Assembly: GCA_944382875.1 (NCBI GenBank)
Contig: CALWNQ010000007.1
Span: 1 to 64,000, forward strand
Source: an uncultured Clostridia bacterium
GTDB lineage: Bacteria > Bacillota > Clostridia > Oscillospirales > Ruminococcaceae
Direction: 5' to 3'
DNA: 64,000 bases
Shown one piece after another: positions 2-22,862 of this stretch. The notes below the pieces were generated by a model. It worked only from the letters and a program-made list of their open reading frames with translations. It was not told the origin of the DNA and made no database searches. The translations under genes were made by a program, and so were the position numbers. How positions within the stretch are numbered: the stretch's first letter is position 1; every line of letters begins with the position of its first letter.

Positions 2-139
2 GCCCAACCCTTTCTGGATGCACTGGAAATCGCATCCGAAAGAGTTCGGGCTTTTATTTCTGCCGTCCTCGCCAGAGAAAAGGAAACAAGGGAACTTAAA
101 ACACCCGCCCGCAAGCGTGGACAGGACATGGAACTTTGA
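2..139 (+). CDS. C-terminal fragment of an unrecognised mobile-element protein (partial)
   Basis: An open frame runs from the window edge to TGA at 137-139 (45 codons). The visible tail is helical and charged and ends in KTPARKRGQDMEL. A ribosome binding site for the next small gene starts directly after the stop, so the two are probably co-transcribed. I do not recognise the family. Its position upstream of an HTH gene and a serine recombinase suggests cargo or a mobilisation function of the same element, which is inference only. Confidence 0.45.
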   Translation, partial: AQPFLDALEIASERVRAFISAVLAREKETRELKTPARKRGQDMEL

Positions 140-3995: not shown

Positions 3996-4952
3996 TTATC
4001 CCCTTCGATAACGCTCTAATCGTTCTGGAATATCCCCTTCATATTCGGTATCACCGTTCCAAAACCGCTCCACCATTTCCATCGTGGGAATCCCGGCACG
4101 GCCCCCAATGTATCGGCACTTCATCGAGGCGACTGTACCCGCAAAACGCAGAATCTCCGGAAGCTTCCAGCCTTTTGCCATACCGCAGACAAACGCTCCG
4201 TGATAAGTATCACCGGCGCCTACTGTGTCTACAACCTTGACCTTGGGTGCAGGCGAAAAGTAAAATCCTGTGTCATCTGCCGCTGCCGACCCGCTGCCGC
4301 CAAAAGTGAAACCGGCAATCTGCAGCCGGTATTTTTCCCGAAATGCCAGGCAGTTTTCCCGGATTTTAGACAAGCTTGCGCCATCCGCATGAAAATAATC
4401 CCGATAAAAGAACTCGGAACCGATTAATACATCCAGCTTCGGGAGAATTTCCTCCACTTGAGGGGAATAGGCGTCCCCATCATAAAAAACCGTAACCCCT
4501 GCCTGTCTGGCCGCTTCGGCCGCCTGCTGCTGTACCGCACCACAGGAAGCGAGATGCAGAATCTTGGCTGTCCGGATCATCGCAAGATCCTCTTCCTCCA
4601 ATTCATACGGAGAACGCTCAATTCCGGAGTATAAGATGCTGCGCCCCTGCGATTCCTTATCAGATATCACATAATTGAGCCCCATCCAACCCGGTAATAC
4701 CCGCAAACGTTCGGTATGAATCCCATGGTATTCCAGATCTTCTTTGCAAAAATGCCCCCAATGATCGTCGGTAACACTCCCAATGATTGCTCCCGAAACG
4801 CCTAAACGTCCCACCGCAGCCAGAGCGGTGGCAACTTTCCCGCCGCCCTGCAAACTGGTTTCGGTGATCCGCATGCTTTCGTTTGGAAGAGGCCGTCTCT
4901 CCAGATGAATCAGACAGTCCATACAGGGGAAATCCAAGCCGACAATTTCCAT
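3996..4952 (-). CDS. PfkB-family carbohydrate kinase
   Basis: 318 residues from ATG 4952, with GGAGG 8 bases upstream; the longer TTG start at 4967 would overlap that site. It is a ribokinase-fold enzyme. GGGKVATALAAVGRLG near residue 40 is the N-terminal PfkB signature, and VDTVGAGDTYHGAF at about residue 250 is the C-terminal signature with the catalytic Asp. It is the last gene of the mannosidase operon, 4 bases after the aldolase stop. Paired with an aldolase, it probably phosphorylates a ketose phosphate such as fructose-6-phosphate or tagatose-6-phosphate. Substrate cannot be fixed from sequence; PfkB members also act on ribose, fructose and adenosine. Confidence 0.88.
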   Translation of the reverse strand: MEIVGLDFPCMDCLIHLERRPLPNESMRITETSLQGGGKVATALAAVGRLGVSGAIIGSVTDDHWGHFCKEDLEYHGIHTERLRVLPGWMGLNYVISDKESQGRSILYSGIERSPYELEEEDLAMIRTAKILHLASCGAVQQQAAEAARQAGVTVFYDGDAYSPQVEEILPKLDVLIGSEFFYRDYFHADGASLSKIRENCLAFREKYRLQIAGFTFGGSGSAAADDTGFYFSPAPKVKVVDTVGAGDTYHGAFVCGMAKGWKLPEILRFAGTVASMKCRYIGGRAGIPTMEMVERFWNGDTEYEGDIPERLERYRRG

Positions 4953-17452: not shown

Positions 17453-18481
17453 ATGAGTTTGAACCGTGTCCATCACGAACCTGATTTTGAAAATATTCGC
17501 CGCGTCCTCTGCCGGGAAAAGCCGGAACGGCCCACCTTATTTGAGTTTTTTATGAATCCGGCTGTCTATGAAGAAGTAGCCGGTCCCGCTCCCACCGATC
17601 CTGATCCGATTGTCCAGATGGCCTATACCATTCGCGCTTTTGCCGCCTGCGGCTATGATTACGCCACCGTTGCCGGATGTGATCTTGGCTTTCCTACTGG
17701 AGAAACCGAACGAAAAAACACCATTTCGCTCAACGCTCACACCCTGATCCGAAATCGCGCGGATTTCGAAGCGTATCCTTGGCCGGACGCGAAAAACGCC
17801 GATTATTCTCGTCTGGAAAAAATCAAGCCCTTTCTGCCGCCTAAAATGAAGCTGATGACTTCCGGACCAAACGGTCTTTTGGAAAATGTCATCAGCATTG
17901 TGGGAAATGATAATCTCTGCTTGCTCCTCTACGATGATCCGGAACTGGTACAGGATATTTTTGACCGGGTAGGCGGAATCCTTCTCGATTATTACGAAAA
18001 CTGCGCCCGGTACGACACTGTGGGCATCCTGATGATCAACGACGACTGGGGCTTCAACACCCAAACCATGCTCTCGGTTGCTGATATGCGGAAATACGTT
18101 TTCCCTTGGCACAAAAAGATGGTGGAAGCCGCCCACCAAAACGGCAAACTCGCCGTGCTGCACTCCTGCGGGTATATGGGCGATATTATGGAAGATATCA
18201 TCGAAGACATGAAGTTTGATGGCCGCCATTCCTATGAGGACAATATCATCCCGGTAGAAGAAGCTTACCGCCGCTGGGGCGGACGGATTGCCATTCTGGG
18301 CGGGATGGATGTGGATTTCCTTATTCGTTCCAGCGAAGAAGAAATCCAGCGTCGTGCCAAAGAAATGCTTGCCCTTTCTGCTGAAAAAGGCGGCTATGCC
18401 CTCGGCTCCGGAAACAGCATTCCATATTATATTCCAAACGAAAAATATTTTGCCATGACAGCTGTTGTCGCGGAAGCATGA
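17453..18481 (+). CDS. Uroporphyrinogen decarboxylase (URO-D) family protein, methyltransferase-like
   Basis: 342 residues, ATG 17453 with AAAGGAGG upstream. It belongs to the URO-D fold group that includes the corrinoid-dependent methyltransferases MtaA and CmuA. LHSCGYMGDIMEDII near residue 225 offers the His-x-Cys zinc-ligand pattern of the methyltransferase branch, and LGSGNSIPYYIP is near the C-terminus. It is unlikely to be HemE: no other heme gene is near and the context is sugar catabolism. No corrinoid protein or reductive activator is nearby, so the substrate is open. Followed by a strong terminator. Confidence 0.82.
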   Translation: MSLNRVHHEPDFENIRRVLCREKPERPTLFEFFMNPAVYEEVAGPAPTDPDPIVQMAYTIRAFAACGYDYATVAGCDLGFPTGETERKNTISLNAHTLIRNRADFEAYPWPDAKNADYSRLEKIKPFLPPKMKLMTSGPNGLLENVISIVGNDNLCLLLYDDPELVQDIFDRVGGILLDYYENCARYDTVGILMINDDWGFNTQTMLSVADMRKYVFPWHKKMVEAAHQNGKLAVLHSCGYMGDIMEDIIEDMKFDGRHSYEDNIIPVEEAYRRWGGRIAILGGMDVDFLIRSSEEEIQRRAKEMLALSAEKGGYALGSGNSIPYYIPNEKYFAMTAVVAEA

Positions 18482-18487
18482 AAAAAA

Positions 18488-18518
18488 CCGGGAAGGAAAA
18501 ACCCTTCCCGGCCTTTTT
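18488..18518. terminator. Bidirectional terminator
   Basis: CCGGGAAGG / CCTTCCCGG stem with T-run on the plus strand and a long T-run on the minus strand. It ends both the UROD-family gene and the convergent DUF6512-like gene, whose last codon touches the T-run. Confidence 0.85.
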
Positions 18519-19026
18519 ATGCCACAGGATTCCGGAACATCCCAAATTCCGGAGGGAAAAAGGTAAACAGCGCGAATGCACCAACCAATCCCGCCAGAAC
18601 CAAAACTCCGATCACTTGAGATGTTTTTCCGGATAGTGCTCCATTTTCCAGCAGCTTATAGCTGAAAACATAGGCTCCGATGACACCAATAAAAAAAGTC
18701 GCAATATCTGCCACCATGAAATTTTTTCCTAAAATTCCGGAATAGGTGTAAAAAGCCGCGACAATCAAAAACATCCCAAACACAATCGAAACGACACGCA
18801 CTGTGATAAAATTCGGAAGGTCTTTGCCATATAAAAAATATTCCGCTATTCCGAATACCAGCATTGGCACAAAGAGCAATTTCAGATGCTCCCAAGTGCT
18901 CTCGCTGACAGCCGAAAACAAGCCGACCGCTGGGCTTTTTCCAAACCATTCATAGGTAAAATGCAGAAGAGTCCCTAAAATCAGAGTAAAAATCGTCCCC
19001 ACTGTCTGCCATTGCTTGATTTGCAT
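18517..19026 (-). CDS. Five-helix membrane protein, DUF6512-like
   Basis: 169 residues from ATG 19026 (GAGG 8 bases upstream; ATG 19032 would be too close). Five hydrophobic segments are visible. The first loop carries HFTYEWFGKSPAVGLFSAVSES followed by TWEHLKLLF, a stretch I associate with the DUF6512 family of small integral membrane proteins. No catalytic motif is evident. It stands alone with a shared terminator, so context gives no clue to its job. Confidence 0.75.
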   Translation of the reverse strand: MQIKQWQTVGTIFTLILGTLLHFTYEWFGKSPAVGLFSAVSESTWEHLKLLFVPMLVFGIAEYFLYGKDLPNFITVRVVSIVFGMFLIVAAFYTYSGILGKNFMVADIATFFIGVIGAYVFSYKLLENGALSGKTSQVIGVLVLAGLVGAFALFTFFPPEFGMFRNPVA

Positions 19027-19115
19027 ACTCATCGCCTCTCATCCTTTATTCCGTCTTATTTTATGCTAAAATTACAGAAAATATACCATTTTTTGAATTT
19101 TATCACTTTACATTC

Positions 19116-19143
19116 TTGACTTTGATTTGGATTGTGCTACAAT
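19116..19143 (+). promoter_or_regulatory. Promoter of the short transcript
   Basis: TTGACT (19116-19121), 16 bases, TACAAT (19138-19143). GAGGTGA at 19171-19177 and ATG 19183 follow, so the RNA looks made to be translated. Confidence 0.65.
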
Positions 19144-19182
19144 GGTATCATTGCTTTAACAGGAAGAATTGAGGTGACAGCT

Positions 19183-19603
19183 ATGGTACAGGACACGGCT
19201 CCCGCAAAGTGGGTTGCCTTTGGAACAGCTTTTTGCCGTTTTGTTTTTTGCTGCGTCACCTCGCCTGTTTAAAACGCCCATCGAAGCTGTCCAGCAGCGG
19301 TTTGGGCTTTCCCGCCGGAATGCCATAATGATTGTGGAGCTTGTCGCTGTCGGCATTTTGATCGAAAACGGCGATATTGTGGGGAGCTAGATGGACATTG
19401 TTTTGATTTACATCATCCTGCTGGGTGCCATGATTGCAGCCATCATGTTCTTCTGGGTTTGTGCGAAAGATTTTGGCCAGTAGCAGGTGCAGACGGGACG
19501 GGGAAAAAATTGGAGGATTGTTAAACCAATAACGCAGTGGGTGTTTGTGGGACTCACATGGATTGTTTACATTCTTGGCATTGTATTTCGGGGGATCGGA
19601 TGA
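19183..19603 (+). pseudogene. Possible degraded small membrane protein gene
   Basis: ATG 19183 has GAGGTGA 8 bases upstream, but its frame stops at 19270-19272 after 29 codons. A one-base shift near 19217 enters a frame reading LEQLFAVLFFAAS, then FGLSRRNAIMIVELVAVGI up to TAG 19388. After that TAG the same frame continues with the hydrophobic ORF at 19391, then TAG 19481, then KPITQWVFVGLTWIVYIL to TGA 19601-19603. Three disablements in 420 bases favour decay. No family was recognised. Separate small ORFs are the alternative. Confidence 0.35.
19391..19483 (+). CDS. Possible 30-residue hydrophobic small protein
   Basis: ATG 19391 directly follows TAG 19388-19390 and has GGGGAG 4 bases before that stop's end, so stop-start coupling is possible. 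The product is almost one transmembrane helix (MDIVLIYIILLGAMIAAIMF) ending FWVCAKDFGQ. Such peptides occur as subunits of membrane complexes or as type I toxins. Nothing here tells which, and it may be only part of a decayed gene. Confidence 0.3.
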   Translation: MDIVLIYIILLGAMIAAIMFFWVCAKDFGQ

Positions 19604-19618
19604 TCCCCGTTTATTTTG
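19589..19618 (+). terminator. Terminator of the short transcript
   Basis: GGGGATC (19591-19597), loop GGAT, GATCCCC (19602-19608), followed by GTTTATTTT. It ends the unit just before the MATE gene's ribosome binding site. Confidence 0.6.
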
Positions 19619-19634
19619 GAAAGGATTTTGAAAA

Positions 19635-20981
19635 ATGGTAAAAAATCTAACAGAAGGAAAACCGTTGCGACTGATCCTGATGTTTTCCCTGCCTCTGGTA
19701 TTGGGGAATCTATTCCAGCAGTTTTACAGCATGGCTGACACCATCATTGTCGGGAAATGTATCGGAGTAGACGCACTTGCCGCAGTTGGAGCAACCGGAT
19801 CGCTCAACTTTTTGATTATGGGATTCGCAACCGGAATCTGCAGCGGGTTAACCATCCCGATGGCGCAGTTTTTTGGAGCAAATGACGAGAAAAATCTGCG
19901 CCAGAGCGCTGCCAATTCCCTTTATGTTGTGGCTGCCCTCACAGTTATTCTGACCGTGACAACCATGCTGTTTACCCGTCAGATCCTGGAACTGATGCAG
20001 ACACCGCCCGACATCCTGCAGGGTTCTTACGATTACATCATCGTCATTTTTGCCGGTATGGGCGCGACACTGCTTTACAACCTGCTTTCTGGTATGCTCC
20101 GGGCATTGGGAGACAGCAAAACCCCGCTGTATTTCTTAGTGATTGCCTCCCTTTTGAACGTAGGGCTCGACTTTTTATTTATTATGTCTTTTGGGATGAA
20201 TGTAGAAGGTGCTGCTTGGGCAACCGTGATTTCTCAGGGCGTTTCGGCGCTCCTTTGTTTCGGATATATTATCTGGAAATTCCCGATCCTGCGGCTGCAC
20301 GGGGAAGATTGGAAGTTCAGCTGGCGGCATATTGGTAAAATGCTGGGGATTGGCGTTCCAATGGGCTTGCAATTCTCACTGACCGCGTTGGGAAGCATCA
20401 TCCTCCAGAGTGCGGTGAATACACTGGGTTCCAGCGTGGTCGCCGCAATTACGGCGGCAAGCCGGGTGCAGATGATCCTGACACAGCCAATGGAAACACT
20501 GGGCATTACACTGGCCACCTACTGCGGCCAGAACCTTGGCGCTATGAAGCTGAACCGGATTCGAACCGGCGTGCGGCAGGCAACCTGGGTGGGGCTGATC
20601 TACACAGTGGCTGCATTCTTTATCGCTGTTTTAGCAGGACAGAAAATCGCTCTGCTCTTCCTTGACGCAAGCGAAACGGCAATTTTAGGAATGGTGTCCC
20701 ACTTCTTGCTGATTAACGGATTCTTTTATCCGTTGTTGGTACTGATTTTTATTTACCGCAATTCTCTGCAGGGGCTGGGATTTGCGCTGCCGGCTATGAT
20801 TGCCGGAATTTTCGAGCTGGTCGGGCGCGCCGCGGTAGCATTTTGCCTGGTCGGTGTCTTTGGGTTCAACGCTGTCTGCTTTGCCAACCCGGCTGCATGG
20901 GTAATGGCGGATATCCTGCTGTTGCCGGTTTATTTTGTGTCAATCCGAAAATTATTTCATACCTATCCGAACCGCGAATAA
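19635..20981 (+). CDS. MATE-family multidrug/sodium antiporter
   Basis: 448 residues, ATG 19635 with GGAAAGG about 10 bases upstream. Twelve hydrophobic segments in two halves. The N-terminal half has LVLGNLFQQFYSMADTIIVG and the second half GVPMGLQFSLTALGSIILQ, both typical of MatE domains. It should export drugs or metabolites in exchange for Na+ or H+. It has no neighbouring regulator. A second MATE gene lies at 30.8-32.2 kb. Confidence 0.93.
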   Translation: MVKNLTEGKPLRLILMFSLPLVLGNLFQQFYSMADTIIVGKCIGVDALAAVGATGSLNFLIMGFATGICSGLTIPMAQFFGANDEKNLRQSAANSLYVVAALTVILTVTTMLFTRQILELMQTPPDILQGSYDYIIVIFAGMGATLLYNLLSGMLRALGDSKTPLYFLVIASLLNVGLDFLFIMSFGMNVEGAAWATVISQGVSALLCFGYIIWKFPILRLHGEDWKFSWRHIGKMLGIGVPMGLQFSLTALGSIILQSAVNTLGSSVVAAITAASRVQMILTQPMETLGITLATYCGQNLGAMKLNRIRTGVRQATWVGLIYTVAAFFIAVLAGQKIALLFLDASETAILGMVSHFLLINGFFYPLLVLIFIYRNSLQGLGFALPAMIAGIFELVGRAAVAFCLVGVFGFNAVCFANPAAWVMADILLLPVYFVSIRKLFHTYPNRE

Positions 20982-21302
20982 TCGGGAAAGAAAATTCCTC
21001 CAATCTGTATAGAACGCCTTGACAGAATGACCTTTCAGTAATAAAATAATATAGAATGGAGTAATTTCTCTGAAAATCCGGCGCTTCTTTCGAAGGCCGT
21101 TTTCCATACACGTTCTGATGCGGAATTCAATGGATCGGAAAAAGAAGAAAAGGGAAACAGAGGGGGTACTCTGTCCTCCGGCAGGTATTGCCGGAGCGAA
21201 ATGCAGGGTTCATAGGAGCATCGCATCCGCGAGGCTTTGATGATCTGTTTTTCATATCACTCTGATCATAGAAAAAAAGAGAAAAGGAGGGATCCATTCC
21301 GC
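20982..21302 (+). other. Promoter and long structured leader of rny
   Basis: 321 bases without a gene. After the promoter at 21019-21047 a leader of about 250 bases remains. It contains ACAGAGGGGGTACTCTGT and CTCCGGCA / TTGCCGGAG hairpins around 21158-21200 and a run of purines before the ribosome binding site. I match it to no known riboswitch. It may control RNase Y expression or be processed by RNases. Confidence 0.5.
21019..21047 (+). promoter_or_regulatory. Promoter of rny
   Basis: TTGACA (21019-21024), 17 bases, TAAAAT (21042-21047). Confidence 0.65.
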
Positions 21303-22862
21303 ATGGAACAAATTATTTTGTCTTGTGCTATCACATTTGTTATTACCCTGCTTGCAGGGGGCGCCGCATGTTTTTTTATCGGCGTAGCCTATCGCAAAAA
21401 GGTTGCAGAAACCGAAATTGGAAGCGCTGAGGATCAGGCCAAACGGATCGTCAACGAAGCATATAAGTCGGCCGAAGCAAAGAAAAAAGAACTGTTGATA
21501 GAGGCAAAGGAAGAAGTCCACAAGCTGCGTTCCGAAGCTGACCGGGATATTAAGGAGCGGCGCTCCGAAGTTTCCCGTCAGGAACGCAGAATCCAGCAGA
21601 AAGAGGAATCTTTGGATAAACGGCTGGATAACCTGGAAAAGAAAGAAGAAGCTATCCAGGAAAAACATCAGCAGGCTGAGGAACGCCTGAAAGAAGCGGA
21701 AAAAATCAAAAAAAGCCAGATTGACTCGCTAGAACGCATTTCCGGCCTGACCGCAAGCCAGGCCAAAGAACAGTTGCTGGAAAGCCTGGAAGGGGAACTT
21801 GTTCACGAAAAGGCTTTGAAAATTACAAGTTTTGAGCAACAGCTTAAAGATGAAGCGGAAGACAAAGCCCGTGAACTTTTGTCGCTGGCCATTGCACGTT
21901 GCGCCGCTGACCACGTCAGTGAAGCCACTGTTTCCGTGGTAACTCTCCCAAGCGACGAAATGAAAGGCCGGATCATCGGCCGAGAAGGCCGCAATATCCG
22001 AGCTCTGGAAACGCTTACTGGCGTGGATCTGATTATCGACGACACACCTGAAGCAATTACTCTGTCAAGCTTCGACCCGGTACGCCGGGAAATTGCACGG
22101 CTCTCATTGGAAAAACTGATTACCGACGGCCGTATTCATCCCGCCCGTATCGAGGAAACAGTAGAAAAAGCCACGCGCGAAGTCGAAGCAAAGATCAAAG
22201 CCGAAGGTGAACGCGCCATGATGGAAACCAATGTCCACGGCTTGCATCACGAACTGGTCAAGCTGCTGGGACGGCTGCGTTACCGCACTTCCTACGGTCA
22301 AAATGTTTTAAACCACTCGATCGAAGTAGCCCATCTGGCAGGCGTCATGGCAGCCGAACTCGGCGTGGATGTTACAATGGCCAAGCGCGCAGGTTTGCTG
22401 CATGATATCGGTAAGGCGCTCAGCCACGAAATCGAAGGCTCCCATGTCCAGATCGGTATGGATGTCTGCCGCAAATACAAAGAAAATCCGCAGGTTCTGC
22501 ACGCAATTGAAGCCCATCACGGCGATGTGGAAACTAAAACAGTTATTGCAGCTCTGGTTCAGGCAGCGGATGCCATTTCGGCGGCACGTCCTGGAGCACG
22601 ACGTGAGAATCTCGAAAACTACATCAAACGTGTGGAAAAACTCGAAGAGATTGCCAAATCGTTTGACGGTGTGGAAAAATGCTACGCCATTCAGGCTGGC
22701 CGTGAAATCCGCATCCTGGTCAAACCGGAAGTGATCCATGATGATGAAATGGTCATTACCGCCCGCGAGATTGCTAAGCGAATTGAAAGTGAGCTGGAGT
22801 ATCCCGGTCAGATCAAAGTACACATGATTCGAGAAAGCCGCGCCATTGACTACGCAAAGTAA
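21303..22862 (+). CDS. rny: Ribonuclease Y
   Basis: 519 residues from ATG 21303, the usual length of RNase Y; AAGGAGGG is about 11 bases upstream. Domains in order: an N-terminal membrane helix (about 3-27), a long Lys/Glu coiled coil (about 35-190), a KH domain with [15 protein letters not shown] (about 220), and an HD domain with [11 protein letters not shown] and the HD pair (about 365). It starts bulk mRNA decay as a membrane-anchored endonuclease in Firmicutes. It stands alone with a long structured leader and a strong terminator. Confidence 0.97.

Follow-up and report, generated by a model that had tools for sequence, protein, structure and literature searches.

The reading frame and its interruptions

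Can a frame that is open except for two in-frame TAG codons, and that begins a hydrophobic block directly after the first of them, encode a functional product? This question is raised by positions 19116-19618 of the window, the stretch of 64,000 nucleotides of DNA from an uncultured Clostridia bacterium that was analysed here. The initial annotation had described a short transcription unit with a promoter, a ribosome binding site and a terminator, and had proposed three explanations: a decayed gene, a set of coupled small membrane proteins, or a recoded gene. Features are given below on the forward strand unless stated otherwise.

The description of the frames was accurate. The frame at 19178-19603 is open save for TAG at 19388-19390 and TAG at 19481-19483, and it ends with TGA at 19601-19603. 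The start codon, ATG 19183, lies in another frame, as had been noted, and opens a frame of 29 codons (19183-19272). A 30-residue hydrophobic stretch is found at 19391-19480, its ATG lying immediately 3' of the first TAG. Upstream, a promoter-like site (TTGACT-16-TACAAT, 19116-19143) has 10 of the 12 consensus positions and a TG before the -10 element, and GAGGTG is present at 19171-19176. A search of its own genome with the DNA of the region gave a single match, the region itself. An Rfam search of 18000-21400 returned four matches, all under the gathering score and none of them inside 19116-19603; one such match, on the minus strand, spans 19610-19736.

The three pieces are collinear with the end of a sodium:neurotransmitter symporter

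When searched alone, the three window pieces had no match to a Pfam family at E 0.01, and a tblastn scan of genome contigs with the 58-residue first piece recovered no relative. A search with the first piece in 100 genomes (own included) gave matches in 7 of them, the best outside the own genome being open frames of 452 codons in G004 (E 1.7e-11) and G003 (E 4.3e-11), two genomes of 'Candidatus Merdivicinus', which should also be the genus of the window. Both carry intact ORFs of 449 amino acids: L037 in G003 ('Ca. Merdivicinus intestinigallinarum') and L036 in G004 ('Ca. M. excrementipullorum'). The G004 protein belongs to the sodium:neurotransmitter symporter family (NSS/SNF, PF00209; E 2.9e-46).

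The intact L036 protein was then aligned to the whole window by tblastn. Its residues 310-449 matched 19214-19600 with an E value of 5e-37, the sole significant match (the second best had an E value of 0.16), and nothing in the window matched residues 1-309 significantly. The first piece (19214-19387) aligns from residue 310 of the 449-residue frame and has lost 8 and 2 residues in frame; it is followed by the second piece (19391-19480), whose ATG corresponds to a Met codon inside the symporter gene. The third piece (19484-19603), one residue shorter than in the congeners, carries the gene's own end, TGA. The length of the open frame at 19178-19603 is thus due to symporter homology and not to chance, and the 29-codon frame from ATG 19183 enters this remnant out of frame. 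Compared with bacterial NSS/SNF members, which have about 450 residues, the window pieces are collinear with residues 310-449 and stop at the same position; unlike intact members, the window copy consists of the last third alone, with small deletions and two stops in frame. The PF00209 profile itself gave no match at this locus in the own genome, which retains two further symporters, both distant from L036 (37-38% identity across about 347 residues).

An intact symporter gene occupies the same place in two congeners

The remnant lies upstream of an intact gene for a MATE-family transporter (PF01554; 19635-20981), which provides a syntenic anchor for comparison with relatives. In G003 and G004, an intact symporter gene is found directly upstream of the MATE orthologue. 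When the intact orthologue was used as a tblastn query, 59 loci were recovered, and the symporter-MATE neighbourhood was seen in these two only (flanks of up to 4 kb were read, some cut by contig ends). In G001, G002 and G006, the sequence read next to the MATE orthologue contained no symporter. Of 7 genomes of the genus, 3 have a PF00209 match and 4 have none (one 95% complete, three 77-85%); given this and the other context, the family appears expendable in the genus and loss of the symporter unremarkable. The MATE gene of G004 (locus L099, same genome as L036) is broken into two frames at about residue 366 by a frameshift or an assembly error.

The lesions are confined to the window lineage

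The window fragment was aligned with 55 homologues chosen for full length among the 59 loci; the 4 partial loci left out were L088, L090, L092 and L093, three of which begin at a contig end. The comparison of stops in related genomes, which the initial annotation had proposed, showed that they are not conserved, as neither TAG is carried by any of the 55 full-length homologues. The column of the first TAG is Trp in 55/55, and that of the second is variable and holds a sense codon in all 55. With respect to the congeners, the window copy lacks residues 1-309 and has sustained in-frame losses of 8, 2 and 1 residues.

The remaining sequence has also changed faster than its relatives. The window shares 79 of 127 comparable residues with L036, compared to 123 for the congener L037 and at most 97 for the other homologues, nearly all from other genera; of the full-length homologues apart from L036, 54 in number, 38 exceed the window in residues shared with L036, 3 equal it and 13 fall below it. 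In relative-rate counts, changes found only in the window (26-32) exceeded those found only in the congener (4-9) in 18/18 comparisons, which overlap (p 6e-6 to 0.006). Five of 22 invariant residues are changed in the window, whilst any intact copy has lost at most 1 of 22-23 (leave-one-out, n=55). A tree of 56 sequences places the fragment beside the two congeners (support 0.858), with a terminal branch of 0.57 against a median of 0.08, the third-longest of the 56; the two longer branches belong to L084 and L081, which are intact but distant homologues. For the adjacent MATE gene, pN is 0.16-0.19 when the window is compared with three congeners and 0.13-0.21 when these are compared with one another, which is no unusual divergence.

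An error in the assembly or sequencing of a gene that is really intact has to be considered, the genome being a draft of 59 contigs. We regard this as highly improbable, because several separate lesions are combined with accelerated substitution across the whole piece, within a contig of 122,754 bases.

An intact homologue in relatives, with the stops absent there, had been named beforehand as the outcome pointing to a plain pseudogene, and it is what was observed. Homology, synteny, truncation, stops absent from the full-length homologues and accelerated change are all seen at this locus: an intact orthologue stands in the same place in relatives, the lesions belong to the focal lineage and constraint is relaxed. 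Of the three explanations first offered, the decayed gene is the one borne out, and positions 19214-19603 are almost certainly a plain pseudogene of a sodium:neurotransmitter symporter, reduced to its C-terminal third. Truncation pseudogenes of bacteria, degraded transporter genes among them, typically combine a large deletion, stops, accelerated substitution and an intact syntenic copy in relatives. The relic shares all of these features and differs in nothing essential; what is unusual is that a MATE-like promoter segment now precedes it. No report of a neurotransmitter sodium symporter pseudogene in Clostridia was found in a literature search.

The common ancestor would have carried an intact symporter gene upstream of the MATE gene. 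In the window lineage, the first two thirds of the gene would have been lost and the small in-frame deletions and the two in-frame stops would have arisen, probably in that order, leaving a remnant whose amino-acid sequence is drifting. The hydrophobic blocks are parts of the last membrane segments of the symporter, and the three small 'ORFs' leftovers between stops. The remnant probably makes no functional product, and the promoter may still transcribe it, possibly as a 5' leader of the MATE gene.

Residual constraint and the small-protein explanation

Substitutions with respect to L036 still favour third codon positions (36, 28 and 75 at first, second and third positions), and pN/pS stands at 0.32 for the whole fragment and at 0.23 for the middle piece of 30 residues. 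Decay is therefore probably not old, and some residual constraint is possible; its persistence fits decay begun well after the split from the congeners.

The same figures could be taken to mean that the pieces of the symporter tail (about 58, 30 and 38 residues) have been kept as small membrane proteins, translationally coupled at the TAG-ATG junction. Third-position bias persists, the pN/pS of the middle piece is low, a possible start is available for each piece (TTG 19214, ATG 19391 and GTG 19487) and a purine-rich stretch precedes ATG 19391. However, this stretch, GGGGAG, and the ATG are symporter codons, the ATG being the internal Met of a W-M-D motif of the family. The TAG-ATG junction is thus accidental, since this Met follows the column that is Trp in all full-length homologues. 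The middle piece is also not well kept, as its pN is 0.17-0.19 against intact homologues (5/5 comparisons), compared to 0-0.06 between intact homologues (7/7 pairs, the congeners' own pair left out). With the stops found in no full-length homologue, about two thirds of the protein gone and the invariant residues eroded as described, the coupled small proteins of the initial annotation have to be abandoned as very unlikely.

TAG is an ordinary, infrequent stop codon in the window

It was also proposed that the gene is recoded, with read-through of TAG giving a longer protein. This explanation draws on the position of both TAGs, in frame with otherwise open sequence, and on the use of TAA or TGA as the stop in 10/10 window genes checked by hand. 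In a mechanical count, however, TAG terminates 7 of the 50 ATG-started window frames of at least 250 amino acids. Two of the seven are clear genes, for PPK2 and for a Transpeptidase (penicillin-binding protein), with a Pfam domain that ends no more than 2 and 9 residues before the TAG; the remaining five matched no Pfam family at E 1e-5. Taken with the genes checked by hand, this count indicates that TAG is used as a stop, but not often.

The genome itself gives no sign of a recoding apparatus of the pyrrolysine type: PylS was searched for with TIGR02367, which had no match at E 0.001 in the own genome, a draft that is 98% complete (in a control set the model matched in 13/14 genomes, and above its cut-off in 1). 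Read-through would yield the last third of a transporter only, in a frame other than that of ATG 19183, and the second TAG falls in a column that varies among homologues. As the stops occur in no full-length homologue and TAG is the ordinary stop of at least two window genes, recoding is hardly credible.

The locus may serve as a cautionary example, because frames separated by TAG, hydrophobic blocks and an ATG that directly follows a stop mimic recoding or an operon of small proteins. The mimicry has a simple source: a decaying membrane transporter stays hydrophobic, and the W-M motif of this family gives rise to a TAG-ATG junction.

As a separate observation, an isolated symporter fragment was seen at one of the partial loci, L093, at 4001-4285 of a contig of Eubacterium sp. 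UBA3279. It covers residues 322-416 and is 74% identical; its open stretch is not cut by a contig end, and it is apparently an independent truncation.

The upstream segment resembles that of the MATE gene in two congeners

The segment 19108-19193, which comprises the promoter-like site, GAGGTG and ATG 19183, resembles the promoter, leader and start of the MATE genes of the congeners at loci L098 and L099. Local alignment scores were 45 and 42 with the sequences upstream of these MATE genes, compared to 34 and 35 with those upstream of their symporter genes. None of 6355 other 110-nt segments of the window reached the two MATE scores, whilst the symporter-upstream scores were reached by 9 and 6 of them. 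Upstream of the MATE gene of L096 the score was 33, equalled by 3/6355 other segments. Mononucleotide shuffles never attained (0/500) the scores obtained with the MATE upstream sequences of L096, L098 and L099, nor (0/500) those with the symporter upstream sequences of L098 and L099; for the MATE upstream sequences of L095 and L097 there was no excess over shuffles, 300/500 and 188/500 of which reached the score. We also considered that the promoter at 19116 is the old symporter promoter, and the resemblance to the MATE upstream sequence was the stronger of the two in the comparison with other window segments. A MATE origin of the segment is moderately supported by these sequence comparisons, and no more firmly than that because the symporter upstream sequences also exceed shuffles, L095 and L097 give no excess and the L096 score is equalled by three segments.

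The spacer between the relic and the MATE gene is 31 nt long (19604-19634), against 120 nt in L098 and L099, and can be aligned to the beginning of the congener spacer. In the two congeners, the MATE gene has its own promoter-like site in the 120-nt gap; this site is absent from the window gap. With a MATE-like segment upstream and the MATE gene's own promoter missing, the relic may therefore now be the 5' leader of the MATE gene. A rearrangement may have placed a MATE-type promoter and start before the symporter tail, so that the MATE gene may be transcribed across the relic from the promoter at 19116, a reading with moderate support from the sequence. It is a more tentative, and in our estimate unlikely, proposal that the relic acts as a leader of about 450 nt, with small frames or a hairpin that modulate expression of the MATE gene. 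If the leader reading is true, the decay of one transporter would have rewired the regulation of its neighbour.

The signals around the relic differ in quality. The initial annotation was right about the promoter-like site and the ribosome binding site, but the terminator that it gave the unit is weaker than claimed. The hairpin at the end of the unit (19591-19608) has 7 pairs and is followed by the tail GTTTATTTTG, in which the U tract is broken; it overlaps the TGA of the frame, and 26 nt separate its end from the MATE start at 19635. The fold of the segment 19575-19640 is no more stable than that of shuffled sequence (z -0.09; 84/200 shuffles equally or more stable), and this weak terminator-like hairpin is not counted here as a functional terminator. 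Over 18500-20200, promoter-like hits numbered 5 compared to 2.5 in shuffles (sd 1.4) and terminator-like hits 5 compared to 2.3 (sd 1.6), a modest excess in each case. On the other side of the relic, a DUF6512 membrane protein (PF20122) is encoded divergently on the minus strand at 18517-19032.
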